Source of the DNA: Elioraea tepida
GTDB lineage: Bacteria > Pseudomonadota > Alphaproteobacteria > Acetobacterales > Acetobacteraceae
Assembly (NCBI RefSeq): GCF_019203965.1
Contig: NZ_CP076448.1
Coordinates: 2,619,001 to 2,683,000, forward strand
Direction of reading: 5' to 3'
Length of the DNA stretch: 64,000 nt
In this document: positions 1,483 to 19,576 of the stretch, piece after piece
How the letters are laid out: each line of letters opens with the position of its first letter
Numbering within the stretch: position 1 is the first letter of the stretch
Position numbers and translations under genes: made by a program
Notes under the pieces: model-generated
What the model was told of the DNA's origin: nothing
The model's database searches: none
The model's input: the letters and a program-made list of their open reading frames with translations, nothing else

Positions 1483-2380
1483 GGCTCCGGACTCATAACC
1501 GGCAAGTGACGGTTGCGGCGAGGTAGACGGCGCTGAGGAAGACGTCTGCGCGTCGGTCGTATCGCGTGGCGATGCGTCGGAAATCCTTGAGGCGGCAGAA
1601 GACGCGCTCGATCAGGTTTCGCTTGCGCCAGGCGCTCCGGTCGAAGGGGTGTGCTGTTTGCGGGTGGGGTTGTTCGGGATCACCGGCAGGATGCCGCGGG
1701 CGAGGAGGAAGCTGCGGATGCCGTTGCTGTCATAGGCAGCGTCGGCGATGCAGAGCTTGGCTGACGGCCAGGGAGCAAGCAGCGCCAGTGCCACTGGCGC
1801 ATCGCCGTGCTGGCCGGCGGTCAGTTCGAAACCGATCGGGCGGCCAAGATGATCGGTCAGCGCGTGGATCTTGGTGGTCCGCCCGCCCCGCGGCGGGCCC
1901 CATCGCGGCTTGCCGCGATGGGTTCCGCGACCGCCCGATGGCTTGCGCGCGCTCCCCCCTTTTCCACCCCCGGCGCTGCGATGGGCCTTCACATGGCTGC
2001 TGTCGAGCAAAAGCTCGGCCGGCGGGCCGCCAGCCCTGGCGAGCGCGCGGAACACGCGCTGCCACACGCCCTTGGCTCTCCAGCGCACGAAACGGTTGTA
2101 CAGCGTCTAGCGCGGGCCGTAGACAGCCGGCGCATCGACCCACCGACCACCAGAGCGCAGCACATGGACGATGCCGCTGATCACACGCCGGTCATCCACC
2201 CGAGGCTTGCCGCGTCTCTCCGAAGGCAAGAGCGGCGCAAGCCGCCGCATCTGCGCCTCGCTCAGAGAGACACAGATCGCTCATCCCGGTTCCCCTCCAT
2301 CACCGCCAAGGGAACCACCCCGAAACACACCAGCCCGCGTCGCTCAAAGAACTTTATGAACACATTATGGGTCCGGACCC
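1483..2380 (-). mobile_element. IS A: IS5-family (IS427-like) element, 898 bp, decayed
   Basis: The terminal inverted repeats are GGCTCCGGACTCATAA at the left end and GGGTCCGGACCCATAA (read inward) at the right end, 14 of 16 matching. The element is flanked by TA on both sides (1481-1482 and 2381-2382), consistent with a 2-bp TA target duplication. The right-hand TA is also the TA flank of IS B, so A appears to have inserted at the exact edge of the IS630 element. Confidence 0.8.
1493..2284 (-). pseudogene. IS A transposase, multiply broken
   Basis: The DDE transposase of an IS5/IS427-like element is readable only in pieces. The N-terminal part (LSEAQMRRLAPLLPSERRGK) has a stop just upstream in its own frame and seems shifted relative to the ATG at 2284. 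A TAG at about 2108-2110 replaces the Lys codon of the conserved YGPRKTLYNRFVRW segment. The first catalytic Asp is in ELLLDSSHVKAHRS, and the second is in KLCIADAAYDSNGI. After NNPTRK the frame shifts, and the C-terminal block with the catalytic Glu (RNLIERVFCRLKDFRRIATR) is read in another frame, ending at 1493. Three or more lesions make it inactive. Confidence 0.85.
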
Positions 2381-2382
2381 TA

Positions 2383-3445
2383 AAGCGGTTTTCCTACTGG
2401 TGTGAATAGCCGCAGTTGGTGATGTATTTTCGGCATTCGTCTGGGGCGAAGGCGTCGAGCACGCTGCCGATGGCGTTTCAGAGGCCATCGACGGTGCGGC
2501 GTGCGGCGGTGCGAAGCAGGGCCTTCAGCTTGGCGAAGAACTGCTCGATCGGGTTCAGGTCTGGGCTGTAGGGTGGCAGGAAGAGCAGGCGCGCGCCGAC
2601 TGCCTCGATGGCTTCGCGAACGCCCTTCACCCTGTGGCTGCCGAGGTTGTCGATCACCACCGTGTCGCCCGGGCGCAGGCTTGGTGCCAGGAACTGCTCG
2701 ACATAGGCGCGGAAGCTTGGGCCGTTGATTGCGCCGTCCAGCACGAGGGGTGCAACAACTCCGTCGGCGCGCAGCCCGGCGAGGAAGGTTGTGGTTTTCC
2801 AGAGGCCATGCGGCACGGCCGCGACGACGCGCTGCCCGCGCGGCCCGCGCGCCATGCGGCGGGTCATGTTCGTGCTGGCCCAGGTCTCGTCCACGAAGAC
2901 CAGGCGCTCGGGATCGAGGCTCGGCTGCATCTCGCGCCAGGCGGCGCGGGCGGCGGCTACGTCCGGGCGGTCCTGCTCGGCGGCGCGGACCGACTTTTTT
3001 TCAGCGTCAGCCCAAGCCGCGCCAGCGCCCGCCAGACCGTCACCAGAGAGACCGCGACACCGCGCTCGGCCAGCAGCCAGCCGCGCAGTTCGCCAAGTGT
3101 GGCATCCGGCTGCGCAGCCACACGCTCGCGCAGCGGCGCAAGATGCGCGGCGATCTTCGACGGCGGCCGACCCGTCCCACGCCGCGCCACCGTCTCGCCC
3201 GTCTCGTCCCGCTGCTGGCGCACCTTCACGACGTAGGACGGGCTGACCATCAGCCGCTCGGCCACCTCGCGCACGCTCGCCCCGCCATCACAGGCCGCGA
3301 GCACCCGTCCCCGCAGGTCCGGCCCATAGGCTTGTCCCCGACGCCACCCCATCTCCGCCTCCAGCTCATCGCCAGAGGCCTACGAATCACAGATCAGGGC
3401 CGCGCCGGAATCCCCAAACCGATTCCACCAGCCAGAAATCGACTC
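2383..3445 (-). mobile_element. IS B: IS630-family element, 1,063 bp
   Basis: The outer ends were inferred from imperfect inverted repeats: AAGCGGTTTTCCTACTGGTG at the left, and at the right (read inward) GAGTCGATTTCTGGCTGGTG. TA dinucleotides flank both ends (2381-2382 and 3446-3447), as expected for IS630/Tc1-like insertion. The left flank is the LysR fragment (with IS A interposed), but the right flank is the truncated IS C. The two flanks therefore do not reconstruct one uninterrupted target. Confidence 0.75.
2394..3352 (-). pseudogene. IS630 transposase of IS B (frameshift plus premature stop)
   Basis: orfA (2957-3352, starting MGWRRGQAYGPDLRGRVLAA) is the helix-turn-helix half and ends [14 protein letters not shown] run of seven A on the coding strand (T7 at 2995-3001) allows a -1 shift that restores [14 protein letters not shown] and joins orfB. 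orfB carries the DDE core: [26 protein letters not shown] and [24 protein letters not shown] at 2478-2480 stands where TVDGLW would be expected. The family-like tail (AIGSVLDAFAPDECRKYITN) continues in frame to a natural stop at 2394-2396. The A7 shift may be programmed, whereas the UGA is probably a disabling mutation that removes about 28 residues after the catalytic Glu. Confidence 0.8.
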
Positions 3446-4582: not shown

Positions 4583-5914
4583 TCAGTTTCTAAACATTGT
4601 TGACGGCAGCCAGGTGGCGATGCCCGGAAAGACGGTCACCAGCGCCACGGCAGTGCACATCAACAGAAAGAAGGGGAGCGTGTTTCGTGCGATCGAGAGG
4701 ATGTTCTCCCCCGTTAGCCCTTGCAGGACGAACAGGTTGAAGCCGACGGGAGGCGTGATCTGCGCCATCTCGACAACGAGGACGATGAAGATCCCGAACC
4801 AGAGCAGATCGAACCCCGCCCCCTGGATGATCGGCAGAACGACCGTGACGGTGAGCACGATCATGCTGACGCCGTCGATCACGCAGCCGAGCAAGATGTA
4901 GACCCCCGTGAGTGCGGCGATGATCAGGTACGGGTGAAAGCCCTGCGCGCCGACCCACGCCGCCATCGCCGCGGGGATTCGGGTATAGGCCATCGCCTGT
5001 GTCAGAAAGGCTGCGCCGGCGAGGATGAAGTTGATCATGCAGGAGAGCCGGACTGCTCCCATCAGACTGTTGCGAAATGTCGTCAAGGTGAGCGTTCGCT
5101 CCCACGCCGAAAGCGCCAGAGCGCCGATCACGCCCATCACCGCGGCCTCCGTTGCGGTGGCAATCCCGCCATAAATTGAACCGAGAACAGCAAGGATCAG
5201 CAGCAGAACCGGGATCAGCGCGCCGCTTTCGGCGAACTTGCGGGCGAGCGACAAGCGCGGCCCGGGAGGAGGCGTAAGCCGCGGGTTCAGCAACGACCAG
5301 ACCATGATATAGCCCGAGAACAAAGCAACCAGCATCAACCCGGGCAGAATGCCCGCGATGAAGAGCCGCACGATCGAGACATCGGCCGCCACCCCGTAGA
5401 CGATCATGACGATCGAGGGCGGAATCAGCAGGCCGAGCGTGCCGGATCCAGCGAGCGAGCCGATCGCCATGGGCCGGTAATACCCACGCTCAAGGAGGGT
5501 CGGCAGGCTCATCTTGCCGACCGTTGCGGCCGTTGCAGCGGAGGAGCCGGAAACGGCTGCGAAAATGCCGCAGCCGATCACGTTCACGTGCATCAGCCGG
5601 CCGGGAAGGCGCTCGACCCACGGCGCGAGGCCGCGGAACATGTCCTCCGAGAGTTTTGTTCGGAATAGGATCTCGCCCATCCAGATGAACAGCGGCAGGG
5701 CGGCCAGCGTCCAGGACGCCATGGCCTGCCACACCGCCGTCCCTAGAACCTTCTCCACCGGAAAGGCGTTGAAGGAGGGGAAGACAGCCGGAAGGACAAC
5801 GATGCCGACAAGCCCGGTAAGCATGAGGGCGAATCCGATCCAAATGCCGAGACCGAGGAAGAGGAAAAGGGTCGCGAGCAGGATGACGCCTGCTTCGGTC
5901 AGGGCGACGTCCAT
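4583..5914 (-). CDS. dctM: TRAP transporter large permease (DctM-type)
   Basis: The 443-residue membrane protein belongs to the DctM family, the large permease of tripartite ATP-independent periplasmic transporters. It would carry an organic anion with sodium or proton symport. The start at 5914 (MDVALTEAGVILLATLFLFL) puts the first transmembrane helix where the family has it, and the longer upstream frame overlaps dctQ. Family segments include GCGIFAAVSGSSAATAATVG, GSLAGSGTLGLLIPPSIVMI, GGIATATEAAVMGVIGAL and QITPPVGFNLFVLQG. It lies 4 bp after dctQ in a dctP-dctQ-dctM operon. The substrate is unknown. Confidence 0.92.
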   Translation of the reverse strand: MDVALTEAGVILLATLFLFLGLGIWIGFALMLTGLVGIVVLPAVFPSFNAFPVEKVLGTAVWQAMASWTLAALPLFIWMGEILFRTKLSEDMFRGLAPWVERLPGRLMHVNVIGCGIFAAVSGSSAATAATVGKMSLPTLLERGYYRPMAIGSLAGSGTLGLLIPPSIVMIVYGVAADVSIVRLFIAGILPGLMLVALFSGYIMVWSLLNPRLTPPPGPRLSLARKFAESGALIPVLLLILAVLGSIYGGIATATEAAVMGVIGALALSAWERTLTLTTFRNSLMGAVRLSCMINFILAGAAFLTQAMAYTRIPAAMAAWVGAQGFHPYLIIAALTGVYILLGCVIDGVSMIVLTVTVVLPIIQGAGFDLLWFGIFIVLVVEMAQITPPVGFNLFVLQGLTGENILSIARNTLPFFLLMCTAVALVTVFPGIATWLPSTMFRN

Positions 5915-5918
5915 CGTC

Positions 5919-6449
5919 TCAGAGCTCTTCCGACGCCTTCTCGAGCGCCGTCTCGCTGCCACGCCGATAGGACGGCATGCCGCCTTGGAGCAAAACAACG
6001 AGGTCATCGATGAGCGCGATCGCAAACACGAGGGCGCCCGCCGCCATGAAGCTCTGCGGCATCCACAGCGGCACGGCCAGCATGCCCTGCGCCACTTCCT
6101 CAAACGTCACGCTGTCGGAGACAAGATCGACAGCTGCCCAGGCGAACAGAAGCGACATGCACGCTGCTGCCGCGAGGGCGACCGCCTCGATCACTGTACG
6201 CGCCCTGCCGCGCACGCGGCCGATCAGGAGGTCGACCCTGATATGCGCACCATGCCGGAAGGCATAGGCGAGCGGTAGCATGGCACAGGCGGCCATGGAG
6301 AAGGCGGTGAGATCGTCGCCGCCGGGCAGGAGACCTCCGACCTGCCGCAGCACGACCTGCGCAAGGATGAGCCCGCCGACGGCCAGAAGCGCGACAGCGC
6401 CGGCAATCCCACTCGCCCCGTACAGGGTGTCGAGCGAGCGGCGAAGCAT
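5919..6449 (-). CDS. dctQ: TRAP transporter small permease (DctQ-type)
   Basis: The 176-residue protein has four predicted membrane helices and the DctQ signature region (LAYAFRHGAHIRVDLLIGR), typical of the small membrane subunit that binds the large permease. The start is taken at 6449 (MLRRSLDTLYGASGIAGAVA), since the longer open frame overlaps dctP. The order is dctP, 17 bp gap, dctQ, 4 bp gap, dctM, so the three genes should be co-transcribed. Confidence 0.88.
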   Translation of the reverse strand: MLRRSLDTLYGASGIAGAVALLAVGGLILAQVVLRQVGGLLPGGDDLTAFSMAACAMLPLAYAFRHGAHIRVDLLIGRVRGRARTVIEAVALAAAACMSLLFAWAAVDLVSDSVTFEEVAQGMLAVPLWMPQSFMAAGALVFAIALIDDLVVLLQGGMPSYRRGSETALEKASEEL

Positions 6450-6466
6450 CACCGCCGCGCCTTGGG

Positions 6467-7480
6467 TCAGGCAGCCCGGGCGATCGCCGCGCGATAGGCC
6501 TCGATCAGCGCCCGGCCATCCGGCCCGGCCTTCTGAAGCCACTCATCGACCATGATGTTGCCGATACGCGCGAGGTCTTCCATCAGCTTCTGCGGCGCCG
6601 GGTCAGTCACGATCATGCCGCGTTCAGCGAGCTGGCGTTGGCGTGACACTTCCTGCTCCTGCGCAAGATCCCAGCCCCTCTGTTCGGCACGTTCGGCAGC
6701 GTTCCGGATAGCCGTCTGTGCCGCTGCGGGAAGGCTGTTAAGCGCGCGCGTGGAGCAGAACACGGCGTTCTTAGTGCGCGTGAAACCGACCGGAACGAAG
6801 TACTTCACGTAGTCCCAGGCCTGGCTGTCGACCCCGGTAGCGGCGGATGTAACCATGGCATTCACGACGCCGGTGGCGAAAGCCTGAGCCAGTTCGGCCA
6901 CCTGAACGAGCGTCGGGGTGGCACCCACAAGCGTTGCGAATCGTTGCGTTGCCGCGTTGAAGGTGCGGAACTTCGTCCCCTTCAGGCCCTCGAGGCTCGT
7001 CAGCGGCGCGTTGGTGTAGAACCCCGACTGGGGCCAGGGAACCATGTAGAGCAGGGTGAGGCCCTGGCGCGCGAACCGCGCCTGGATGTAGGGGCGCTGC
7101 AAGCCGTTCAAGACCCGTGCCTGCGTGAAGTTGGTGACAAGCATCGGAATGCCGTCGACCTCGAACATCGGGTCCTCGTTCCCGTAGGCAGAGAGAAGGA
7201 TCTCGCCCATCTGCACCTGACCGGTCTGAACGCCGCGCTTGATCTCCGGCATCCGGAGAAGCGACGCATTCGAGTGGACCACAATGCTGAAGCCTGGGAC
7301 GGCCGACTCGATCTCCTTGACGAACTCGCGGATGTTCTGAGTGTGGAAGTTCCCATCCGGGTATGGCGTGGCAAACTGCCAGCGTGTACGCTGAGCTGCA
7401 GCATCGGAGGGAAACAGGCCGGAGCTCAGGGCAGCCAGAGCACTGCCCGAGGCACCCAGCAGAAGTGAGCGGCGATCCAT
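6467..7480 (-). CDS. dctP: TRAP transporter solute-binding protein (DctP-type)
   Basis: This is the periplasmic receptor of the TRAP system, 337 residues. The start at 7480 gives MDRRSLLLGASGSALAALSS, a signal sequence ending near DAAAQ, with a short basic start. Family features include an internal GLKGTKFRTFNAATQRFATL segment, in which the conserved Arg of DctP proteins contacts the substrate carboxylate, and a GVVNAMVTSAATGVDSQAWD segment. The substrate is probably a carboxylate but cannot be read from the sequence. It is the first gene of the operon, and its promoter should lie in 7481-7580. Confidence 0.9.
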   Translation of the reverse strand: MDRRSLLLGASGSALAALSSGLFPSDAAAQRTRWQFATPYPDGNFHTQNIREFVKEIESAVPGFSIVVHSNASLLRMPEIKRGVQTGQVQMGEILLSAYGNEDPMFEVDGIPMLVTNFTQARVLNGLQRPYIQARFARQGLTLLYMVPWPQSGFYTNAPLTSLEGLKGTKFRTFNAATQRFATLVGATPTLVQVAELAQAFATGVVNAMVTSAATGVDSQAWDYVKYFVPVGFTRTKNAVFCSTRALNSLPAAAQTAIRNAAERAEQRGWDLAQEQEVSRQRQLAERGMIVTDPAPQKLMEDLARIGNIMVDEWLQKAGPDGRALIEAYRAAIARAA

Positions 7481-7580
7481 CACACGAAGCCCCCAAATCC
7501 GTCGTTGCGGGCGACAAACGCCCATTCACGCCAGCATGTCACAGAAAACGGGCCTCGAGCGCAAGGGGGTCTTGGAGGTA

Positions 7581-7784
7581 TCAACGGCTGGAGTCACCGT
7601 CGCCCGAGGCCTCGGCGGCGTCGAAATGGCGCTTCACCAGCGTGAACAAGAACAGCACGAAGGCGAGGAAGATGACGAGACCGGCGATATAGAACGCATC
7701 ATCCTTGGCTGAGGCGGCCATCACGAGGCCAACGAGCGCCATCAGCACGCCGAGGCTGCCGAAGATAAGCGAGGATGGGGTCAT
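7581..7784 (-). CDS. Small membrane protein translationally coupled to ccoS
   Basis: The 67-residue protein starts MTPSSLIFGSLGVLMALVGL and has two predicted membrane helices (about residues 5-23 and 31-50) with a charged C-terminus (KRHFDAAEASGDGDSSR). Its ATG overlaps the ccoS stop (ATGA, 7781-7784), so it is the last gene of the cbb3 operon and probably translated by re-initiation. I do not recognise a family. By position it could be a cbb3 assembly factor or small accessory subunit, which is an inference only. Confidence 0.7.
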   Translation of the reverse strand: MTPSSLIFGSLGVLMALVGLVMAASAKDDAFYIAGLVIFLAFVLFLFTLVKRHFDAAEASGDGDSSR

Positions 7785-7975
7785 CGCGTCGTCTCCCTCG
7801 AGGTTTCGACGTGTTGGGGGGACTGCGGCGGCGCCATCTCGTCCTCGAACAGCACCCTGGAGGCGACCGCTTCGAGATCATCGTATTGGCCGCTTCGGAC
7901 AGTCCAGAGAAATCCCGCGAGCGCGAGCCCCGCGAGCAGAAGCGACAGAGGGATGAGGAGGATCAGTGCGTCCAT
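7781..7975 (-). CDS. ccoS: cbb3 oxidase maturation protein CcoS
   Basis: The 64-residue protein starts MDALILLIPLSLLLAGLALA. It has one N-terminal membrane helix followed by the CcoS-like FLWTVRSGQYDDLEAVASRV segment and a variable tail. CcoS is needed for cofactor insertion (heme b and CuB) into CcoN in related bacteria. The start overlaps the end of ccoI by 13 bp, and the stop overlaps the next small gene by 4 bp. Confidence 0.9.
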   Translation of the reverse strand: MDALILLIPLSLLLAGLALAGFLWTVRSGQYDDLEAVASRVLFEDEMAPPQSPQHVETSRETTR

Positions 7976-10329
7976 GGCACACGAGCCCTCTCGACCCTCA
8001 GCGCATTCAGGATGACGGTCACGGACGACGCTGCCATCGCAACGGCCGCAACCAGCGGAGTGACGAGCCCGGCTACGGCAAGCGGCACCGCGAGAGCGTT
8101 GTAGGCGAGCGAGATCGCGATGTTCTGACGCACCAGCCGCGCCGCGAAGCGCGCCACATCGATCGCCCAAGGGATGGACGCCAGGCGCTTGCCCTGGAAC
8201 ACGAGGTCGGCGGAGGCTTGCGCGATGTCAGCCCCGCTTGCCGGAGACGCGGAGACATGGGCGGCTGCAAGCGCAGGCGCATCATTGAGCCCGTCCCCGA
8301 CCATCAGCACACGATGGCCCGCTGCGCGCAGCTCAGCAAGCCGTGCGAGTTTCGCACCCGGGTCGGCGCCCGCGCGCCACTGCGAGATATCGGCTGCACG
8401 CGCCGCAGCCTCGACGGCCGCAGGTCGGTCACCCGAGAGGAGTTCGACCTCCAATCCAGCCCGGCGAAGTGCTGCCACCGCCTCCCCTGCGTCCGCCCGC
8501 AGCGCGTCGGCGAAGCGGAAGACAACCGGGGAGCGACCGGGAACAGCAAGCCAGAGCTCCATCCCATCGCCCGCGATCGCGCCCGCGAAGCGTGCGTTAC
8601 CGAGCCGAACCGTTCCAGAGGGCGTCGCACGCGACAGCCCCTGCCCAGGATGCTCGACCACACCCACCGCCGCCGCGACGCCTGCAGCCTGTGCCAAGGC
8701 CCGCGCAAGCGGATGGCGGCTCGCAGCCGCAAGCGACCCTGCGAGCACGAGATCGTCGTCCGACCAGTCGCCCGGAAGCAAGCTTGGCTGTCCGCGCGTC
8801 AGTGTCCCGGTCTTGTCCAGCACCGCGACATCGGCCTCCGCGAGGCGATCGAGCGCGGAACCTGATGCAATGAGCACACCACCTCGCATCAGCCGACCTG
8901 CAGCGGCTACGTGGACGGCCGGCACAGCGATCCCGAGCGCGCACGGGCAGGTGATGATCAGCACCGCGACGGCATTGACGAGAGCCGGCTGCCAGGCAAG
9001 ATCGAACCACACCCACCAGAGCAGGAAGGTTGCGGCGGCGACAAGGTGAACCACCGGCGTGTACCAGCCTGCCACGCGGTCTGCCAAGGCTCGGATGCGC
9101 CCTCGGTCGGCCTCCGCCGCCTCCATCATCCGCACGATTGACGCGAGCACGGTGCTGGTCCCCGAGGCCGTGACACGCACGGTGAGCGGGGCGGCAAGGT
9201 TGAGCGTCCCGGCCTCGACGGTGTCACCGGGCGCCGTGGGACGGGGAATGCTCTCGCCGGTGAGGAGCGACATGTCGATCTCGGAACGTCCAGCGAGCAC
9301 GACCCCGTCAACCCCGATCCGCTCGCCGGCAGCGACGAGAACGCGTTCGCCAACCCGGACGGCATCAGGGGCGCGCGGCCGTGCGATGCCGTCGTCCCCC
9401 AGCACCGAGACCGGAGCGCGACTGAGCGCAAGCAGCTCCGCCGCTGCTCGGCGAGCGCGTGCGCGCACTCGCCGGTCGAGGAAGCGGCCGACCAGAAGCA
9501 GCAAGAGCAGCGTCACCGCGCTGTCGAAATAAGCGTAAGGACCGCCGCGGACCGTCTCGGAAAGGCTCATCGCCGCGGTGAGCAGCACGCCGAGGCTGAT
9601 CGGAACGTCCATGTTGGTCCGCCCCGCGCGCAGCGCGCCGAGTGCGGAGGTGTAGAACGGCAGGCCGCACCAGAGGATGGCGGGAAGCCCGATCAGCGCT
9701 GCGATCCAGTGCATCAGGTCGCGGGTCGCAGGCCCCATGTCGCCGCTCGCATGCCCCGTCCAGACGGCGACAGAGACGAGCATCACATTCATCGCGGCGA
9801 AGGCAGCGACACCCATCGCGCGCATCAGACGCCGGGTCTCATCGTCATCGGCCGAGGCAAGACAGGACGGATCGAACGGCGCCGGGGTGAAGCCAAGCGT
9901 GGCCAGCCGCGCGCCGAACGCATCGGCCCGCTCGGCTGGCCCGCGCCAGCGAATGGTGAGGCGACGCGTTGACAGCGCCTGCCGCGCCCAGGTCACGTCC
10001 GGCTCCTGCGCCAGCACCTGCTCGATCAGCCACGCGCAGGCCGCGCAGGTGACCCCGCCGACGAGCAAGGTGAGCTCATGCCCGCCCTTGCCGTCCGGCA
10101 CGGCGCGCGCGGCGAGATCATGGCGCGGTGCGTCCGGGTCCGGCCGTGGGGGCGAAGCGGAGGCGCGCGCGTAAAACGCCTCGAGCCCCAGCTCCGTGAC
10201 GAGACGGTGCGCCGCCTCGCACCCGCGGCAACAAAACCGATCCGTTCCTGCGGGCAGCGGGCGCCCGCAGTGCGCACAGGCTGAGCCGGCCCGGCCGGTC
10301 GCCCGCTCGAGAAGGTCGGTTTCGGTCAT
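7963..10329 (-). CDS. ccoI: Cu+-exporting P1B-type ATPase CcoI/FixI
   Basis: The 788-residue P-type ATPase supplies copper for assembly of the cbb3 oxidase. The N-terminus has a Cys-rich segment (CAHCGRPLP then FCCRGCEAAH, residues 18-40) typical of CcoI, then a heavy-metal-associated domain with GVTCAACAW near residue 92. The core carries the TGES phosphatase loop (LLTGESIPR), the CPC metal-binding helix (ITCPCALGIA), the phosphorylation site DKTGTLT and the hinge motif MVGDGLNDAPAL. Eight membrane helices are expected. It sits 27 bp after ccoH and overlaps ccoS. The cluster context favours CcoI over a general CopA. Confidence 0.95.
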   Translation of the reverse strand: MTETDLLERATGRAGSACAHCGRPLPAGTDRFCCRGCEAAHRLVTELGLEAFYARASASPPRPDPDAPRHDLAARAVPDGKGGHELTLLVGGVTCAACAWLIEQVLAQEPDVTWARQALSTRRLTIRWRGPAERADAFGARLATLGFTPAPFDPSCLASADDDETRRLMRAMGVAAFAAMNVMLVSVAVWTGHASGDMGPATRDLMHWIAALIGLPAILWCGLPFYTSALGALRAGRTNMDVPISLGVLLTAAMSLSETVRGGPYAYFDSAVTLLLLLLVGRFLDRRVRARARRAAAELLALSRAPVSVLGDDGIARPRAPDAVRVGERVLVAAGERIGVDGVVLAGRSEIDMSLLTGESIPRPTAPGDTVEAGTLNLAAPLTVRVTASGTSTVLASIVRMMEAAEADRGRIRALADRVAGWYTPVVHLVAAATFLLWWVWFDLAWQPALVNAVAVLIITCPCALGIAVPAVHVAAAGRLMRGGVLIASGSALDRLAEADVAVLDKTGTLTRGQPSLLPGDWSDDDLVLAGSLAAASRHPLARALAQAAGVAAAVGVVEHPGQGLSRATPSGTVRLGNARFAGAIAGDGMELWLAVPGRSPVVFRFADALRADAGEAVAALRRAGLEVELLSGDRPAAVEAAARAADISQWRAGADPGAKLARLAELRAAGHRVLMVGDGLNDAPALAAAHVSASPASGADIAQASADLVFQGKRLASIPWAIDVARFAARLVRQNIAISLAYNALAVPLAVAGLVTPLVAAVAMAASSVTVILNALRVERARVPWTH

Positions 10330-10356: not shown

Positions 10357-10857
10357 TCACCTCGCCACGAAACGCTGGCGGAAATCGACCGGCCCATCAC
10401 CGTCACGTCGTGCCTCGAGGCGAACCTCCCATTGCCCCGGTTTAGGCAAGGCGATCGGCGCGACGTATCGACCGGCCCCTGTTTGCGTAAAACTTAGCCT
10501 CAGCGGCTTCGGCGTCTCGAGCGGGCGGATCAGCACGGCGTCGAGCGACAGCTGGTCAAGCGGCGTCGAGCGCGAATCCTCGGCGATCAGCACCACGCGA
10601 CCGGCCAGACGATCGGACGGACCAGCCTCCCACTCCAGCGAGAAGCGCCAACCGATGCGCGCCTGGCGCTCCGCTTCCGCGAGCACCTCATTGTAGAGAC
10701 GCCCTCGCTCATAGGCACGGTCCACGGTCGTGCCGGTGAAGGTGGACAGAGCGAGCCAAACCATGACGGCATTGACGACGATGACGACCCCCATGCCGCC
10801 GACGAAGGCCATCGGGATCCAACGGTCACGTCTCGGCGAGCCAGTCGGCGCAGTCAT
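10357..10857 (-). CDS. ccoH: cbb3 oxidase assembly protein CcoH/FixH
   Basis: The 166-residue protein has one N-terminal membrane helix (MAFVGGMGVVIVVNAVMVWL) and the FixH signature VDRAYERGRLYNEVLAEAER just after it. A periplasmic beta-rich domain follows. FixH/CcoH is required for stable assembly of the oxidase and associates with the subunits. The ATG overlaps the ccoG stop by 4 bp, indicating translational coupling. Confidence 0.93.
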   Translation of the reverse strand: MTAPTGSPRRDRWIPMAFVGGMGVVIVVNAVMVWLALSTFTGTTVDRAYERGRLYNEVLAEAERQARIGWRFSLEWEAGPSDRLAGRVVLIAEDSRSTPLDQLSLDAVLIRPLETPKPLRLSFTQTGAGRYVAPIALPKPGQWEVRLEARRDGDGPVDFRQRFVAR

Positions 10858-12356
10858 CGCTTCGGTGCGAGGAAAACGCTCGCTGTCGAGACGACGGCGC
10901 GTCCGGCCTCGTCCTGCAGCACGAAGGTGACCGGCGTGCTTTCGGCAAGTCGCGCACCGGGCGCGGCCGTGACGTGCACGCGATGGGTCGTAACCCCATC
11001 AGCCCGCGTGGCGATGAGCGGCCGCTCGTCAGGCGCGCCGACGACGGCGATCGTCACTCCGGGCAGCCCCTCGAGGCGGAGATGGTAACTCGGCTCGTCA
11101 TAGCCCTTGTTCCACACTTTGAGCGTGAAACTGTTGCGGATCGTGCCGTCCGAGAGAACAACGTAAAGGGGCGCACGATCGCGCAGAACCGCAAGCTCGG
11201 TTGTGGAGCGCAGAACGAAGGCGACGAGCATCACGAGCGCGACGGCGACAAGAACGGTCGTGTAGATGAGCGTGCGCGGGCGGATGACCCGCCATTCAGC
11301 TCGCGCTGCTGCAACACGCTCAACTCGTGCCGGGCCGGGCGGCACGGCCGAGGCCACCGCCTCTGCCCTCTGCAGATTTGTCAGCGTATCGAGGGCGATC
11401 AATCCACGCGGGCGGCCCACCCGGTCCATGATCTGGTTGCAGGCGTCGATGCAGAGCCCACAGCCGATGCATTCGAGCTGCTGGCCGTCGCGGATATCGA
11501 TCCCGGTGGGGCAGACATTGACGCACTGACGGCAGTCGACGCAGTCGCCACGTCCCTCCCAGGTCTCGCCCTGTTTGTGCTTGCCACGCGGCTCCCCTCG
11601 CCAGGCGCGGTAGGAGACGACGAGGCTGTGCTCGTCGAGCATGGCTGCCTGGAAGCGCGGCCAGGGGCACATGTAGGTGCAGACCTGCTCACGCGCCCAG
11701 CCTGCGAGCGCGTAGGTGGTGAAGGTGAGGATGCCAAAGAATGCGTAGGTCCAGCTCCCCGCCTCGCCTGTGACGATGGCACGAAGCGTGGTTGGTGCAT
11801 CGCCCACGTAGAGAACAAATGCCCCGCCGGTTGCTGCGGCGATCACGAGCCAGACGGTGTGCTTGGCGATCTTCCTGGTCCAGTAGGCGGCGTTGCGCGG
11901 GCCCTGGTCGAGCCGCAGGCGTGCGTTCCGGTCCCCCTCGATCCGGCGTTCGACCCAGAGATAGAGGTCCGTCCAGACAGTTTGTGGGCAGGCGTAGCCG
12001 CACCACACGCGGCCGAATAAGGAGGTGACGAGAAACAGAGACACAGCCGCGAGGATCAGCAGGCCGGTGACGAAGTAGAGCTCGTCCTGCCAGATCACGA
12101 TCGGCCCGAGATAGAAGCGGCGGCCTGCGAGATCGACGAGCAGAAATTGATCAGGCGCATCGCCGGGACGCGGCCAGCGGATCCAAGGCGTGATGTAGTA
12201 GGCGGCAAGGGCCAAGATCAGGAACGCCCATTTTGCGGCACGGAACCGGCCGTTCACGCGAGCAGGATAGACCTTGATCCTCTTGGCGTAGAGCGAGCTC
12301 GGGGGGCTCAGCGGCGCCTCCGCCGGCGTCGTGCGTGTCGGCGCCTCGATGGTCAT
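10854..12356 (-). CDS. ccoG: cbb3 accessory iron-sulfur protein CcoG/FixG
   Basis: The 500-residue membrane protein has an N-terminal multi-helix region (WIRWPRPGDAPDQFLLVDLA, then GRVWCGYACPQTVWTDLYLW). A double ferredoxin-type cluster region follows: CVDCRQCVNVCPTGIDIR and LECIGCGLCIDACNQIMDR. The C-terminal half has an Ig-like FixG domain. CcoG has been described as a cupric reductase assisting CcoI-linked copper delivery. The gene follows ccoP and overlaps ccoH. Confidence 0.95.
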   Translation of the reverse strand: MTIEAPTRTTPAEAPLSPPSSLYAKRIKVYPARVNGRFRAAKWAFLILALAAYYITPWIRWPRPGDAPDQFLLVDLAGRRFYLGPIVIWQDELYFVTGLLILAAVSLFLVTSLFGRVWCGYACPQTVWTDLYLWVERRIEGDRNARLRLDQGPRNAAYWTRKIAKHTVWLVIAAATGGAFVLYVGDAPTTLRAIVTGEAGSWTYAFFGILTFTTYALAGWAREQVCTYMCPWPRFQAAMLDEHSLVVSYRAWRGEPRGKHKQGETWEGRGDCVDCRQCVNVCPTGIDIRDGQQLECIGCGLCIDACNQIMDRVGRPRGLIALDTLTNLQRAEAVASAVPPGPARVERVAAARAEWRVIRPRTLIYTTVLVAVALVMLVAFVLRSTTELAVLRDRAPLYVVLSDGTIRNSFTLKVWNKGYDEPSYHLRLEGLPGVTIAVVGAPDERPLIATRADGVTTHRVHVTAAPGARLAESTPVTFVLQDEAGRAVVSTASVFLAPKR

Positions 12357-12375: not shown

Positions 12376-13245
12376 CTACTCGCCGCCACCAAGAGTGTGC
12401 ACATAGACCGCGAGCATCTTGATTGTCGCCGCGTCGAGGCGACTGCCCCAGGCAGGCATCACCCCCATGCGAGGATTGGTGATCTGCGCGACGATCTCCG
12501 CTTTCGTTCCGCCGTAAAGCCAAATCGCATCGTTCAGCGCGGGCCCTCCCACAGCACGCACGCCCTCACCCCTCTCGCCATGACAGGAGACGCAGTTTTC
12601 CGCGTAGACCTCTTCGCCACGCCTCGCCGCTGCCTGATCCGTCGCGCGGTTCGAAAGGGACAGCACGAACTCCGCGACATCATTGATCTGCCCGCGGCTG
12701 AGAATGCCGCCATAGACCGGCATCTGGCTGATCCGGGCCTCCACACTCTGGGCGTTGCGGATGCCATGGACGATGGTGAAGTGGATGTCCTCGAGGCTGC
12801 CGCCCCAGATCCACTCATCGTCCACGAGCGCCGGGAAGCCCCCGGTGGCTCCCTGGCCGCCTGAACCATGGCAGCCCGCGCAGTTGTCGGCGAAGGCCAC
12901 GCGGCCGCCCGCGATCGCGTAGGCCAGCAACTCGCTACTGTGCCTAATCTCGTCGAGGGAGGCGCCGCGGATCCGATCGAGGAAGGGTGCCTGCTCCGCC
13001 CTTGCCACCGTCATCTGTTCCACGATCGCCGCGCGCTGTGTCCAGCCTGTCAACCCCCGGAAATGGCCCGAGAAACCGGGAAACGACGGATACAACAGCG
13101 CCCATACTGCCGACCACGCGATCGTCGCGTAGAAGATGTAGAGCCACCATCTCGGCAGGGGCGTATTGAGCTCCTTAATACCGTCCCACTCGTGCCCGGT
13201 CGTGGTCTTCCCGGTCAGGCTGTCCTTCTCGATCTTCGTCGGCAT
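12376..13245 (-). CDS. ccoP: cbb3 oxidase diheme subunit CcoP
   Basis: The 289-residue subunit has one membrane helix (PRWWLYIFYATIAWSAVWAL, residues 31-50) and two cytochrome c domains. The heme-binding motifs are CAGCH (122-126) and CVSCH (218-222), and candidate axial Met ligands lie in QMPVYGG (175) and MGVMPAWG (263). It passes electrons from cytochrome c to CcoO. The start at 13245 gives MPTKIEKDSLTGKTTTGHEW, the usual CcoP N-terminus, and a longer open frame upstream is a shadow over ccoQ. The end is 19 bp before ccoG. Confidence 0.96.
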   Translation of the reverse strand: MPTKIEKDSLTGKTTTGHEWDGIKELNTPLPRWWLYIFYATIAWSAVWALLYPSFPGFSGHFRGLTGWTQRAAIVEQMTVARAEQAPFLDRIRGASLDEIRHSSELLAYAIAGGRVAFADNCAGCHGSGGQGATGGFPALVDDEWIWGGSLEDIHFTIVHGIRNAQSVEARISQMPVYGGILSRGQINDVAEFVLSLSNRATDQAAARRGEEVYAENCVSCHGERGEGVRAVGGPALNDAIWLYGGTKAEIVAQITNPRMGVMPAWGSRLDAATIKMLAVYVHTLGGGE

Positions 13246-13262: not shown

Positions 13263-13463
13263 TCAGCCCCGGTCCGCCGCGCATTGCGGCGGCGCGCCAC
13301 AGTCGCCGCCGCCGCGATCGTCGAGTGGAATCCGACCATGCGCCTCGAGCCGCCTCCTGTTCCCCGGCCAGAACGCCCACGCCACGATGCCGACGAACAG
13401 CAGAACGAACCAGAGCAGCCATGCCTGCCTCAGGAGCCCGTAGTTCGCCGCAAGCCACTCCAT
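13263..13463 (-). CDS. ccoQ: cbb3 oxidase small subunit CcoQ
   Basis: The 66-residue protein has a single membrane helix (LLWFVLLFVGIVAWAFWPGN) followed by a polar tail (RRRLEAHGRIPLDD). This is the classic CcoQ/FixQ pattern. CcoQ stabilises the CcoP-CcoNO interaction in related bacteria. It lies between ccoO (9 bp) and ccoP (17 bp). Confidence 0.9.
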   Translation of the reverse strand: MEWLAANYGLLRQAWLLWFVLLFVGIVAWAFWPGNRRRLEAHGRIPLDDRGGGDCGAPPQCAADRG

Positions 13464-13472
13464 ATTCGCCTC

Positions 13473-14198
13473 CTACTGCCTGAGCTGCTCCGGGGTGACC
13501 TCGGCGAAGTTCACAAGCGTGCCGAGCATCTGCAGGTAAGCGATGAGAGCATCCATCTCCGTCACTACGCTTGGGTTGCCGTCGAACGCTGCCTGCACGG
13601 CCTTCGGATAGCGCGCAAGCAGGCCGGTCGCATCGGCATCAGGGTTCGCCTGCGCGATCAGATCGGCGCGCGCATTCGCGATCATCTCCTCCGTGTAAGG
13701 CACCCCGATCGCCCGGAGCGCCCGCAAGTGATCGGCGATCCCGTCAAACTTGAGTGGCCTCAGGAGGAACCCGTAGGGCGGCATGATGCTCTCGGGAACG
13801 ACGCTGCGCGGATCGACGAGATGGGCGTAGTGCCACTCGTTCGAATACTTCCCACCGACTCGGGCAAGATCGGGTCCGGTACGTTTCGACCCCCACTGGA
13901 ACGGATGATCGTACATGCTTTCGGCAGCGAGCGAGTAATGCCCGTAGCGTTCAAGCTCGTCCCGGAACGGTCGTATCTGCTGGCTGTGGCAAGTGTAGCA
14001 CCCCTCTCTCAGGTAGATGTTGCGCCCGGCGAGCTCGAGGGGGGAGTAGGGCCGGACGCCCTCGACGCGCTCGATAGTCGTCTCGATCGTGAATAGCGGC
14101 ACAATCTGCACAAGCCCGCCGATCGACACCGTGACAAGCGTCAGGACGGCAAGGAGGATGACGTTTTTCTCGATGACTTCGTGACGAATCATCACCAT
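13473..14198 (-). CDS. ccoO: cbb3 oxidase monoheme subunit CcoO
   Basis: The 241-residue subunit has an N-terminal membrane anchor ([20 protein letters not shown]) and a single cytochrome c site, CYTCH at residues 67-71 inside [20 protein letters not shown]. It relays electrons from CcoP to CcoN. The start is the ATG at 14198, and a second in-frame ATG at 14192 has a slightly better spaced GGGAGC, so either may be used. It is 10 bp after ccoN. Confidence 0.96.
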
Positions 14199-14208
14199 CG
14201 CTCCCGTC

Positions 14209-15693
14209 TCACTCGGCTGCCACCGGGGCGATTGCCCTTCGTTTCGCGGGCAGCACCTCCATTTCCCTCACTGTCTTCCAGAGGTTGTAGACCATGATCA
14301 ATGCGCCGGTGAGGTAGAAGATGCCGCCAATCGCGCGGATGACATAGTAAGGATGCATGGCTGCGACCGTCTCGATAAAGGAATATTGTAGAAAACCGAA
14401 CTCGTCGTAGGCGCGCCACATCAGGCCCTGCATGATGCCGGAGACCCACATCGCCGTGATGTAGAGCACGATGCCCAACGTCGCGATCCAGAAGTGCCAC
14501 GCAACAAGCTTCTGCGAATAGAGCTCCCGCTTTCTCCACAGCACCGGAACGAGATAGTAGAGAACGCCGAAGGTGATGAATCCCACCCACCCCATTGCGC
14601 CCGAATGCACATGGCCAACCGTCCAGTCGGTATAGTGGCTGAGGGCGTTGACGGCCTTCACGCTCATCACAGGCCCCTCGAAGGTGCTCATCCCGTAGAA
14701 GGCGACGGCGGTCACCGAGAAGCGCAGCCCCGGGTTGGTGCGCAGCTTGTCCCATGCCCCCGAGAGCGTCATGATGCCGTTGATCATGCCGCCCCAGGAC
14801 GGCATCCACAGCATCACCGAGAAGATCATCCCGAGCGTCTGCGCCCAGTCAGGCAGGGCCGTGTAGTGCAGGTGGTGCGGCCCCGCCCAGATGTAGAGAA
14901 AGATTAGCGACCAGAAATGGACGATCGACAACCGGTACGAGTATACAGGACGCTCCGCCTGCTTGGGAATGAAGTAGTACATCATCCCAAGAAAGCCCGC
15001 CGTTAGGAAGAAACCGACGGCATTGTGGCCATACCACCACTGGATCATCGCGTCCTGGACGCCGGCGGGGATCGTGTAGCTCTTCGCGCCGGCGAGGCTC
15101 ACGGGAATTTGGAGATTGTTGCCAATATGCAGCATTGCGATAGTGACAATGAAAGCGAGGTAGAACCAATTCGCGACATAGATGTGCGGTTCCTCCCGCT
15201 TCATGATCGTGCCGACAAAGACGACGAGGTACACGACCCATACGAATGTCAGGAGAAGGTCGACGTACCATTCCGGCTCGGCGTATTCCTTGCCCGATGT
15301 TACGCCCATGACGTATCCGGTCGCGGCGAGCACGATGAACGTCTGATAGCCGAAGAAGAGGAACCAGCCGGCCTCCGCGCCGCCGAACAGGCGTGTGCGA
15401 CACGTCCGCTGCACGACGTAGAGCGACGTGCCCAGCAAGGCATTGCCACCGAAGGCGAAGATCACCGCGCTCGTGTGCACAGGCCTGAGCCGCCCGAACG
15501 TCGTGTACTCGAGGTCGAGATTGAGCGCGGGAAAAGCGAGCTGCCAGGCGATCACCGTCCCCATCAGGAATCCGATGACACCCCAGAACACCACCGCAAC
15601 CATGAAGGCGCGGACGACATCCTCGACATAGTCGGCCGACCGCGCGATCGCGTGACCGCCCGCCTCTTTCCTTATTGCCGCCTCTGCCGCCAT
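14209..15693 (-). CDS. ccoN: cbb3 oxidase catalytic subunit CcoN
   Basis: The 494-residue heme-copper oxidase subunit I, type C, has twelve membrane helices. Metal-ligand histidines are visible: H73 in [10 protein letters not shown] (low-spin heme), H223 in [11 protein letters not shown] and HH273-274 in [11 protein letters not shown] (CuB), and H361/H363 in [14 protein letters not shown] (the two hemes). The [13 protein letters not shown] helix carries the tyrosine typical of the cbb3 active site. It reduces oxygen to water with high affinity and pumps protons. A GGGGGA Shine-Dalgarno lies just before the ATG. An FNR/FixK-like box lies about 90 bp upstream. Confidence 0.97.
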
Positions 15694-15795: not shown

Positions 15796-15898
15796 GGTAT
15801 CTTGCCGTTTGCCGGGCCACACAGGAGAAGCTTCAGACTACGCCAGCGGACGTGAGGGCGGGCGTTTCTGGTTCGCATCGACACGACGAGGCACGCGC

Positions 15899-16675
15899 AT
15901 GACCGACGAGGCCATCGAGGTTTTCGCTCACGCCGCGCCGCGGATCAGACGCGTTGCCGTCGATCGCCCCTGGGCCTGGCTCGCCGCCGGCTGGCGCGAC
16001 GTGACGGCAGCGCCACGCGTGAGCCTCGCCTACGGGGCGCTGATCGTCGTGATTACCTATCTCCTGCTTTTCCTCCTGCTGCAGGCGGGGGTGTTCTGGC
16101 TCGTCCTGCCGCTGACGGCAGGGTTCTTCTTCACGGCGCCTTTGCTCGCGGTCGGCCTCTACGAGACAAGCCGGAGGCTTGCCGCAAGGGAGCCGGTCAG
16201 TCTCGCACGCGCCCTTGCCGCCTACAGGCGAAACGGCACCCAGCTCTCCTTCATGGGTGTGATGCTCGGGCTGCTACACCTCGGCTGGATCAGGCTTGCC
16301 TTGCTCCTCTTCGCCGTCTTCTTCGGCGTCGGCTTCAACCCGAGCTGGGAAACCCTCGTCATCAAGCTGATGGCGCCGAGCGCGATCCCGTTCTGGATCG
16401 CGGGCAGTGCCGTCGGTGCCGTTCTCGCCGCGCTCGTGTTCGCGATCTCCGCCGTCTCGATCCCCATGCTGCTCGATCGCGATGTGAACGTCTTCGTAGC
16501 CGTGGCGACCTCCTTCGCCGTTGTGCGCGAGAACTGGCCGGCGATGACGCTCTGGGCGGGGCTCATAGTTGCCTTCACCCTCTTCGGCGTCATCCCGTTC
16601 TTTCTGGGACTTACGGTGACGATGCCGCTGGTCGGGCACGCCACATGGTACGCCTACAAGGATTTGGTCGAGTAG
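15899..16675 (+). CDS. DUF2189 integral membrane protein
   Basis: The 258-residue protein has a soluble N-terminal 45 residues and then about six membrane helices. Its family-like segments are VDRPWAWLAAGWRDVTAAPR, TAPLLAVGLYETSRRLAARE, PVSLARALAAYRRNGTQL and PLVGHATWYAYKDLVE at the C-terminus. DUF2189 genes often sit beside cytochrome oxidase genes, but their role is not established. The ATG at 15899 fits the usual start, and an upstream extension in the same frame has no family similarity. The gene shares the intergenic region and FNR-like box with ccoN. Confidence 0.85.
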   Translation: MTDEAIEVFAHAAPRIRRVAVDRPWAWLAAGWRDVTAAPRVSLAYGALIVVITYLLLFLLLQAGVFWLVLPLTAGFFFTAPLLAVGLYETSRRLAAREPVSLARALAAYRRNGTQLSFMGVMLGLLHLGWIRLALLLFAVFFGVGFNPSWETLVIKLMAPSAIPFWIAGSAVGAVLAALVFAISAVSIPMLLDRDVNVFVAVATSFAVVRENWPAMTLWAGLIVAFTLFGVIPFFLGLTVTMPLVGHATWYAYKDLVE

Positions 16676-16955
16676 ACATTATCCGAGTTCTGGTGCGAAT
16701 CGTGACCGTTACAGATTTTCCGAGAAACGGCGGTTGACGCCACACGGCTTGGGCAGTTCCGGCTGACCTGGAACGGACGATCGGGAGGCGCATACGCTAT
16801 GCGGCCTCGCCAGTTCCTTACCTTTCCCACGGGCCGTTGTCGGCGGTAAGCCGTCCGCCCTGTCGGTAAAGACCTGAGCACGAACGGGCAGCGTTTCCTT
16901 TGCAAGGCGTCTGCCATACGCGGGCGCCGCTCGTCTGGGTGTCGCAAAACCAGGT

Positions 16956-17693
16956 TCAGGCAAGCCCCGCGGCGCGGAAAGCAAGCGCAACGAGCACTGC
17001 TGCATTAAGCAGGAGCAGTGGCACGGAGACGAGCCGCAGAGTCGGAGCGAAGCGCCGGGTGAAATACGCGCCGGCGAAGCCGACACCCATCAAAGCTGGC
17101 ATGGTTCCCGCACCAAAGGCGGCCATGCTTACTGCGCCTCCAAAAGCGGAGCCGGATGCTGCTGCGGCTACAAGCGCACCGTAGAGAAGGCCGCAGGGCA
17201 GAAACCCGAGGAGCAAACCCAGGGTGAAGCCCCGTCCCCAGGTCGGATTAGCGAGACTTGGCGCGGCTCTGCGCGACACCGCCTCGCTCACGGCGGAAGG
17301 AACGCCGAAGCGGGGGAACCACGAGAGGCTCGGACAGGTCGCCTGCGCAAGTAGCAGACCAGCTCCGAGCACAAGCAAGACAGGCAGAAAGAGAGTGATC
17401 CCAGCACCATGCACGGCAACGCCCGACGCAAAGCCTGCGCCCGCGCCGAGCCCAGAGTAAGTGACGAGACGGCCGAGATGATATGGCAGGAGCGCTCCGG
17501 CGCTCAGTCGCGACAGTGTTGGCCGCGCGACGAGTCCGGCCGACACCTGCCCCAGCACGAATGGTCCGCACATCCCGGCGCAATGCGTTACGCTGCCGGC
17601 AAGACCCGCCACGAACAAGGTCGCCGCAAGCGTCGCGGTGCCTGAACCTCCGAGTGGCGTCAGATCGTGCAAGCACGAGGCAAGCCATTCCAT
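16956..17693 (-). CDS. SafE/DsbD-like six-helix membrane protein
   Basis: The 245-residue protein belongs to the SafE/UreH-like transmembrane family (PF13386-type). Two internally similar halves carry the signatures GSVTHCAGMCGPFVLGQ near residue 33 and LLLGFLPCGLLYGALVAA near 157. The Cys pairs resemble those in CcdA/DsbD thiol carriers. Relatives beside cbb3 clusters are implicated in oxidase maturation or copper handling, though 'sulfite exporter' is a common automatic label. Its placement next to the cco operon favours a respiratory role. The 280 bp downstream (16676-16955) hold no gene or terminator I can recognise. Confidence 0.75.
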   Translation of the reverse strand: MEWLASCLHDLTPLGGSGTATLAATLFVAGLAGSVTHCAGMCGPFVLGQVSAGLVARPTLSRLSAGALLPYHLGRLVTYSGLGAGAGFASGVAVHGAGITLFLPVLLVLGAGLLLAQATCPSLSWFPRFGVPSAVSEAVSRRAAPSLANPTWGRGFTLGLLLGFLPCGLLYGALVAAAASGSAFGGAVSMAAFGAGTMPALMGVGFAGAYFTRRFAPTLRLVSVPLLLLNAAVLVALAFRAAGLA

Positions 17694-17735
17694 GGAGCGA
17701 AGTTTAGGGCGGTCACGGCTGCCGCGCGAGCTCGA

Positions 17736-18170
17736 TCAGGCGTTGCCCGCGACAAACTGGCGGAGCTGATCAGCCTCTTCCTCGACATCGGCGATCCGAC
17801 GCTTCACCACATCCCCGATGGAGACGATGCCGATCAGCTTCCCTTCCTCGACAACGGGAAGGTGGCGAATACGGCGCTCTGTCATCGTCGCGAGTACCTT
17901 GTCGACCGTATCGCACGGCGATCCATATATGATGTCGCGTGTCATCACGGCGCTTGCGGTCAACAAGAGTGCGGCGGCACCGTGTGTGGCGATGGCGCGG
18001 ATGATGTCGCGCTCCGACAGGATGCCGAGCACGGCATCCGTTGCATCACGGATCAGCACTGCTCCGATGTTATGGCGGGAGAGTAGGCGAGTGATAGCCT
18101 CCAGCGTATCATCCGGCCGTGCTGAAAAGATTTCCTGACCCTTTTGCTCCAGTATCGCAGCAACGCTCAT
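17736..18170 (-). CDS. CBS-pair domain protein
   Basis: The 144-residue protein is made of two CBS motifs: TLEAITRLLSRHNIGAVLIR to LGILSERDIIRAIATHG, then AVMTRDIIYGSPCDTVDKVL to HLPVVEEGKLIGIVSIGDVV. Such stand-alone CBS pairs bind adenine nucleotides and act as sensors. The start at 18170 (MSVAAILEQKGQEIFSARPD) is preceded by GGAGG at a good distance. It lies 42 bp upstream of the SafE-like gene and reads the same way. CBS proteins of this type often accompany respiratory genes, but no direct partner is shown. Confidence 0.88.
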   Translation of the reverse strand: MSVAAILEQKGQEIFSARPDDTLEAITRLLSRHNIGAVLIRDATDAVLGILSERDIIRAIATHGAAALLLTASAVMTRDIIYGSPCDTVDKVLATMTERRIRHLPVVEEGKLIGIVSIGDVVKRRIADVEEEADQLRQFVAGNA

Positions 18171-18411
18171 CGCGAACCTCCATTGACATAGGGCGCTGTG
18201 CGGAAGCCCGCAGCCCGCCCTCCGGCAAAGAAGCAGACATCCCGAGCTACCAAAAACGCAACAGGTCAAGTGTGCAGGTGCACAAAGGCTCGACCATTTG
18301 CATTTTCCAGTATGACAGGACGCACTCGCCGGCTTCGCCGTCAGCCCACCCGCCGGAGCGAGCGGCGCAGCCCATCACCTCCACATCAGCACCGCGACGT
18401 CGGCAAAGCTA

Positions 18412-19573
18412 GTGGTTTGATCGAGTTGATGATTCCCTTGTTGGCCCAGACGTGGGAGTCTGGGCGGATGAGGGAAGGCGTTGAGGTCCGGCTCCGGCCG
18501 GGCGACCGGGAGCGGCTTGAAGGCGTGGTCTGCGACCGCAAGAGCTCGCGGCACCACGTCTGGCGGGCTCGGATCGTGCTGATGACCGCGGACGGCGCGG
18601 GCACGATGGCGATCCGCGCGGCGACCGGCAAAGGCAAACCCACGATCTGGCGCTGGCAGGCGCGCTCCATGCACGACGGTGCCGAGGGCTTGTTCCGCGA
18701 CGCCCCGCGAGGCCGCGCCTTCGCTTCCACCTCGCCTGAGCAGATCGCCGCGGTGGTCGAACGCACGCTGCACGACGACCCGCCAGCGGCGACGCACTGG
18801 ACGTTGCGCTCGATGGGGAAAAGGCGAGCGGCCTGGCGCCGTCCACCATCCACCGCATCTGGCGCGAGCACGGCCTGAAGCCGCACCGGGTGGAGACCTT
18901 CAAGCTCTCCAACGACCCGAAGTTCGTCGAGAAGGTCCGCGGGCTGCAGGCAACGCCCGAAGGGCGGGACATCGTCGGCCTCTACGTCAACCCGCCCGAG
19001 CACGCCCTGGTGCTGTCGGTGGACGAGAAGAGCCAGATCCAGGCGCTCGACCGCACCCAGCCGGGACTGCCGATGAAGCGTGGCCGGGGTGCCACCATGA
19101 CGCACGACTACAAGCGGCACGGCACGACAACGCTGTTCGCCGCGCTCGACGTGACGGCGGGCACGGTGATCAGCCAGCGCATGCTCCGCCACCGCGCGGC
19201 CGAGTTCATCCGCTTCCTGCGGCTGATCGACAAGCAGACCCCCGCCGAACTCGACCTGCACCTGATCCTCGACAACTACGCCGCCCACAAGACTGAGGCG
19301 GTGAAGCGCTGGTTGGCCCGGCATCCCCGCTTCCACCTCCACTTCACGCCGACCTCGGCCTCCTGGATCAACGCCGTCGAGGGCTTGTTCGCCACGCTGA
19401 CAAAGCGTCGCCTGAACCGCGGCGTCTTCCGCTCCGTCATCGAGCTGAACCAGGCCATCCATGCCTATCTCAATGCCCACAACGCCGACCCGAAGCCCTT
19501 CCGCCAGACCGCGCCCGCCAACACCATCATCGGCACGCACCAGCGCAGGAAACGTTCGCTGGAATCACTCTAC
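18412..19573 (+). mobile_element. IS D1: IS630-family element, 1,162 bp
   Basis: The ends were defined by comparison with the inverted copy D2. The left end reads GTGGTTTGATCGAGTTGATG and the right end reads GTAGAGTGATTCCAGCGAAC inward, flanked by TA on both sides (18410-18411 and 19574-19575). The right-hand TA also flanks IS E1. D1 sits 240 bp upstream of the CBS gene. Confidence 0.85.
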
Positions 19574-19576
19574 TAG
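18468..19576 (+). CDS. IS630 transposase of IS D1 (two frames)
   Basis: orfA (18468-18878) starts [20 protein letters not shown] and has the helix-turn-helix region ([20 protein letters not shown]). At GGGGAAAAGG (18815-18824) a -1 shift gives [20 protein letters not shown] and joins orfB, which stays open to 19576. orfB carries the DDE triad regions [29 protein letters not shown] and [19 protein letters not shown]. Such shifts are common and may be programmed in IS630, and the total would be about 368 residues. The stop at 19574-19576 uses the TA flank plus the first base of IS E1, so the last codon context is borrowed from the junction. Confidence 0.75.

Follow-up and report, generated by a model that had tools for sequence, protein, structure and literature searches.

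In the window – the whole 64,000-nucleotide stretch of Elioraea tepida DNA that was analysed – the genes ccoN-O-Q-P-G-H-I-S of a cbb3 oxidase lie on one strand throughout, and the last gene of the operon, after ccoS, encodes a small protein that we call X67. The locus contains the following features:

7553..7566, minus strand: weak terminator-like stem plus T-run, ~15 bases past the X67 stop
7581..7784, minus strand: X67, two-helix protein of 67 aa (67 codons plus stop)
7781..7975, minus strand: ccoS, 64 aa (PF03597, E 2.1e-19; TIGR00847, E 9.7e-19)
7963..10329, minus strand: presumed ccoI, copper P-type ATPase, 788 aa; gene order conserved in many cco loci
10357..10857, minus strand: presumed ccoH, 166 aa; conserved order
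10854..12356, minus strand: presumed ccoG, 500 aa; conserved order
12376..13245, minus strand: presumed ccoP, 289 aa; conserved order
13263..13463, minus strand: presumed ccoQ, 66 aa; conserved order
13473..14198, minus strand: presumed ccoO, 241 aa; conserved order
14209..15693, minus strand: ccoN, short form, 494 aa (TIGR00780, E 7.5e-230)

Among the cco genes upstream of X67, family models were run for ccoN and ccoS only; ccoO, Q, P, G, H and I are presumed names in keeping with the conserved gene order. The terminator-like stem at 7553..7566, a single one where chance would give 0.4, may be where the cco operon ends. Further downstream on the same strand is a gene with a DctP solute-binding match (6467-7525, minus strand), followed by 5919-6542 and 4583-6103, which we take to resemble TRAP transporter membrane parts. 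On the other side of the operon, beside ccoN, 15890-18176 encodes a DUF2189 membrane protein (plus strand), a DsbD_2-type membrane protein (minus strand) and a CBS-domain protein (minus strand). Two stretches, ~1612-3352 and 18386-19576, look to us like broken or frameshifted IS5/IS630-type transposases.

The X67 open reading frame is a real gene under purifying selection. It is kept in two same-genus relatives at 63-64% protein identity, with pN of 0.18-0.20, pS of 0.54-0.57 and a dN/dS of about 0.2 over 60 codons, and the plus strand of 7581-7784 is interrupted by a stop in the frame of the coordinates. The gene is coupled to ccoS: ccoS ends CGA-TGA, its stop and the X67 start codon share an ATGA, and GAGGGAG stands before the start. 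Hydropathy places two helices in the protein, and a single-sequence AlphaFold2 model has helices at 3-25 and 29-59 with a mean pLDDT of 80.2. The open reading frame, hydropathy and model thus agree with the original prediction, which named no strand, of a 67-residue, two-helix protein whose ATG overlaps the ccoS stop.

X67 falls below every Pfam and NCBIfam cut-off, and 27 of its relatives gave only scattered sub-threshold matches when compared with Pfam. The top Pfam score belongs to NfeD_membrane (PF24961; E 0.005, 17.3 bits), with which X67 has a hydrophobic stretch in common; we dropped this identity because the score is short of the cut-off of 26. The operon's other small membrane proteins, CcoQ and CcoS, resemble X67 in kind and setting, but each is already a separate gene in the window, and a CcoS/FixS identity was rejected since X67 matches neither PF03597 nor TIGR00847 and the neighbouring gene does. 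CcoM, which we take to have one helix, was also considered. CcoM of Pseudomonas stutzeri is a cbb3 subunit of 36 aa (PMC10433244) – as X67 would be, a small cbb3 membrane protein outside the classical NOQP set, but unlike X67 with its 67 aa and two helices.

The relationship that we did find is to CcoN itself. A scan of public genomes returned at least two relatives of X67. In two of the loci from the search of 100 related genomes described below, the open reading frame that matches X67 runs on into CcoN. We built a hidden Markov model (HMM) from eight such fused CcoN N-termini and searched it against 9,079 six-frame open reading frames. X67 was recovered at E 1.9e-9, free-standing hairpins ranked right behind the eight members of the model, and the top clearly unrelated open reading frame scored E 0.034. 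Against 25,799 open reading frames the same fused-only model matched X67 at E 5.4e-9 and recovered 38 of 59 detached hairpin proteins at E ≤ 1e-3 and 45 of 59 at 0.01, where a profile of the detached set recovers all 59; the 13 further open reading frames that it matched at 0.01 are free-standing family members, mostly from regions fetched for such matches. In the same 25,799 open reading frames none of the detached proteins was recovered by the reversed model at 0.01, or at 1e-3 by any of 30 models whose columns had been permuted in blocks that preserve composition and the rough hydrophobic layout.

Comparison of profiles gave the same picture. For the ccoS-linked and fused hairpins, hhalign returned a probability of 97.3% (E 1.6e-11, single pair) over an ungapped alignment in which the loop and an acidic residue coincide; the upstream-type and fused hairpins aligned at 94.4% (E 9.2e-8, single pair). 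With the hydropathy cut-off used for X67, 49 of the 55 fused CcoN proteins described below have two N-terminal segments and six have one. The CcoN of the window has just 26 open codons ahead of its conserved core, with no hydrophobic segment among them, so there is no room for a hairpin extension. X67 accordingly combines a profile match above the controls, two helices joined by a short loop, and a partner CcoN that has no hairpin of its own. The original prediction had found no match to known cco genes; this has to be revised, as X67 matches the N-terminal two-helix part of many alphaproteobacterial CcoN proteins.

Relatives of X67 recur beside cco genes. In 100 related genomes, its own included, we obtained 38 matches in 36 genomes. 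Thirty of the 38 were examined as loci: in 14 the homologue immediately follows ccoS, in 12 it immediately precedes ccoN and shares its strand, one is divergent near ccoN, two are fused and one is elsewhere. With 29 of these 30 in a ccoN or ccoS position, the assignment of X67 to the cbb3 operon holds. The weakest eight matches comprise one after ccoS and seven not found in a cco position.

We then classified 154 loci in which the N-terminus of CcoN could be read, from ccoN regions of the 100 related genomes and of further genomes of the class; 105 regions were chosen among the ccoN matches listed, one region (L184) was shifted to take in its known hairpin, and ccoN matches without an N-terminus or with ≤45% identity to the CcoN of the window were dropped. 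Inside the CcoN open reading frame a hairpin was accepted if it scored E 0.1 or better or showed two hydrophobic segments; a detached hairpin had to reach E 0.01. On this basis the hairpin is fused to CcoN in 55 of the 154 alphaproteobacterial loci, 52 of them at E ≤ 0.01; the three that miss that threshold (L210, L248 and L164) comprise two that score E 0.02 and 0.09 and show two hydrophobic segments, and one accepted by hydropathy only. An adjacent separate hairpin gene is present at 59 of the 99 non-fused loci, the window included. X67 is a good candidate for the unrecognised cbb3 component that the original prediction had proposed. These detached genes lie upstream of ccoN (22), after ccoS (23) or divergently (14), and 15 of the 23 ccoS-linked homologues have an ATG available at -4 that would give the ATGA overlap. 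The divergent genes are ~0.15-1.4 kb from ccoN (L074, L168, L179, L188, L189, L192, L194, L195, L197, L207, L232, L254, L259 and L260), and on the CcoN tree this arrangement requires six changes, at least four of them on well supported branches. By the criterion of our script, 22 non-fused loci with a complete region have no hairpin match nearby, so the cbb3 oxidase can apparently manage without a hairpin. The other non-fused loci are 16 partial regions without a match and two with a match elsewhere in the region.

On a tree of the CcoN core the fused state is a single change. When the tree was rooted with eight CcoN proteins from outside the class (L297 was left out of nine rows), in which we judged by eye that there is no hydrophobic extension, the 55 fused proteins came out as a single clade (local support 88-89) within the non-fused ones, on a tree in which several deep nodes are weak. 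Most likely, then, the hairpin began as a gene of its own and was fused to CcoN once. A midpoint-rooted tree is compatible with either direction; fission of the hairpin gene out of CcoN was dropped because the outgroup-rooted tree favours fusion. The fusion of the two domains hints at physical contact between hairpin and CcoN.

The two arrangements never occur in one locus. No detached copy lies within any of the 55 fused regions, an exclusivity that counts as one independent event because fusion arose once. When the nine regions chosen by a hairpin match (L251, L252 and L254-L260) are left out, detached copies are found in 0 of 55 fused and 50 of 90 non-fused loci. For the same reason the Fisher p of 4e-16 for fused versus detached is no true probability, and an independent-pairs test of fused against non-fused loci had one usable pair.

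The hairpin family is wider than the cbb3 oxidase. Among 385 genomes of the class we found 104 profile matches: 17 fused, 9 upstream, 11 downstream, 11 divergent and 3 otherwise within 13 kb of ccoN, with 53 not placed near a listed ccoN – a list that missed some genomes, as eight of the 29 rows recorded as lacking ccoN (six genomes) do have a ccoN match. Homologues lying mostly away from cco clusters would have spoken against the original prediction, and about half of them do: 48 of 104 matches are in the four ccoN/ccoS positions, against the 53. Counted by hand, 32 of the 53 come from genomes that have a ccoN match, and the other 21 from genomes that have none at the cut-off applied; two of these unplaced matches adjoin ccoI. 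In a sample of 249 genomes of the phylum, profile matches were found in three, all in the class of the window.

A second recurring neighbourhood consists of a pyridine nucleotide-disulphide oxidoreductase, a histidine kinase or patatin, the hairpin and then a methyltransferase (hairpins at L103:7626-7796 and L115:5592-5852, and in L262, L265, L269 and others); possibly a second membrane complex uses the same hairpin. One open reading frame, L113:5060-5569, carries two tandem hairpin copies (two domain matches), in a genome with only a weak match to the ccoN model (E 5.5e-6). A tree of the hairpins, built on 63 columns and largely unresolved, does not separate the cco-linked copies from other free-standing ones, and it places 43 of 44 fused hairpins away from the detached copies.

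A cryo-EM study of Rhodobacter capsulatus suggests where on CcoN such a hairpin might dock. Its authors tentatively attribute an added helix, found near CcoN TMH3/TMH4 at the oxidase's distal end, to the N-terminus of CcoN (TMH0) and call it specific to R. capsulatus, with the P. stutzeri CcoN that served as template having no such helix; the bc1-cbb3 supercomplex is deposited as PDB 6XKW, 6XKX and 6XKZ (PMC7876108). TMH0 resembles the X67-like hairpin of the fused CcoN proteins in being an extension ahead of the CcoN core, but it is described as one extra helix within CcoN, whereas the window has a separate 67-aa gene after ccoS and a short CcoN. The CcoN chain of PDB 9G83 has residues ahead of the core. 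When a 99-residue query that includes the extension of one fused CcoN was compared with the R. capsulatus chain, the alignment started at residue 12 of that chain.

We looked for covariation between hairpin and CcoN across 110 paired loci, numbering the CcoN helices by the hydropathy of the CcoN of the window. Fourteen of the 40 top column pairs fall in TM3+TM4, a statistic that was fixed after a first result was known: in the first pass many top pairs lay in the CcoN C-terminal tail, and positions >470 and gappier columns were then dropped. Permutation gave a mean of 6.0 and reached 14 in 0 of 200 runs, and 35 windows of CcoI, CcoG, CcoO and CcoP, treated alike to control for shared ancestry, averaged 6.9 and did not go above 11. 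Detached pairs alone also placed 14 of 40 in TM3+TM4, a count exceeded by one of 35 control windows (16); fused pairs alone placed 6 of 40 there, within the control range (mean 4.6, maximum 7). The covariation lends moderate backing to a predicted place for the hairpin near CcoN TMH3/TMH4.

Three other explanations of X67 have to be weighed against a role as a structural subunit. If the hairpin similarity were convergence of two hydrophobic helices, X67 would be an unrelated small operon protein, and short hydrophobic proteins do match spuriously, as the scattered sub-threshold Pfam matches illustrate. Yet at E ≤ 0.01 the fused profile picks up 45 of the 59 detached proteins and its reversed form none, its 30 permuted forms pick up none at 1e-3, and the profiles align without gaps and with loop and acidic residue in register. 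The reversed and permuted profile controls largely exclude convergence, which we regard as very improbable. We also hold it improbable that the hairpin is a generic membrane module whose cco copies were recruited from the histidine kinase/patatin-methyltransferase locus, the fused form being a separate recruitment. Many genomes do hold free-standing relatives in that or other settings, and the hairpin tree mixes them with the cco-linked copies; against this, the detached gene takes three placements that are all in or beside the ccoN-ccoS cluster, in none of the 154 loci alongside a fused copy. The separation of 43 of 44 fused hairpins from detached ones on the hairpin tree fits either recruitment or a subunit.

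The main rival casts X67 as a factor for assembly or maturation, in the manner of CcoS, CcoH and CcoI: it would bind CcoN while the enzyme is built and then leave, and would have become permanent where fused. Its placement after the assembly gene ccoS in 23 of 154 loci, with the four-base ATG overlap available in 15, speaks for this reading. Factors and subunits are also hard to tell apart here, since the assembly factor CcoH is seen at the enzyme in the R. capsulatus supercomplex (PMC7876108). In 22 loci, however, the gene directly precedes the structural gene ccoN, and in one lineage the hairpin is covalently joined to CcoN and hence permanent there. We consider an assembly factor unlikely. 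The original prediction had named an assembly factor or an accessory subunit; because X67 is homologous to the CcoN N-terminal hairpin, the second of these gains and the first loses.

The sequence comparisons therefore lead us to regard X67 as probably a small structural subunit of the cbb3 oxidase, a CcoN N-terminal hairpin encoded by its own gene. As such, X67 would be made together with CcoS and would insert as a helical hairpin, with both ends predicted to be cytoplasmic because of its basic tail and acidic loop. It might then pack on CcoN near TMH3/TMH4, facing away from the bc1 complex, and stay in the finished enzyme, where it would stabilise or position the catalytic subunit; its role would be one in stability rather than catalysis. 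In the parts of the open-access literature covered, including PMC7876108, PMC10903887 and PMC10433244 – subscription papers being mostly outside, so that an earlier mention is possible – we found no description of a separate hairpin gene.

For the class as a whole, we lean towards a picture in which alphaproteobacterial cbb3 oxidases have an overlooked hairpin subunit, encoded near ccoN or after ccoS, that was independent and then fused to CcoN once; it would correspond to the extra helix of R. capsulatus, and the enzymes of Elioraea and its relatives would consist of NOQP plus one polypeptide. Such an identity for X67 would place an unannotated small protein of many alphaproteobacterial respiratory operons in a major oxygen-reducing enzyme, and it could explain why R. 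capsulatus CcoN has an extra helix at its edge. The split and fused forms would also make a natural pair in which the role of the hairpin can be probed with the catalytic core untouched.
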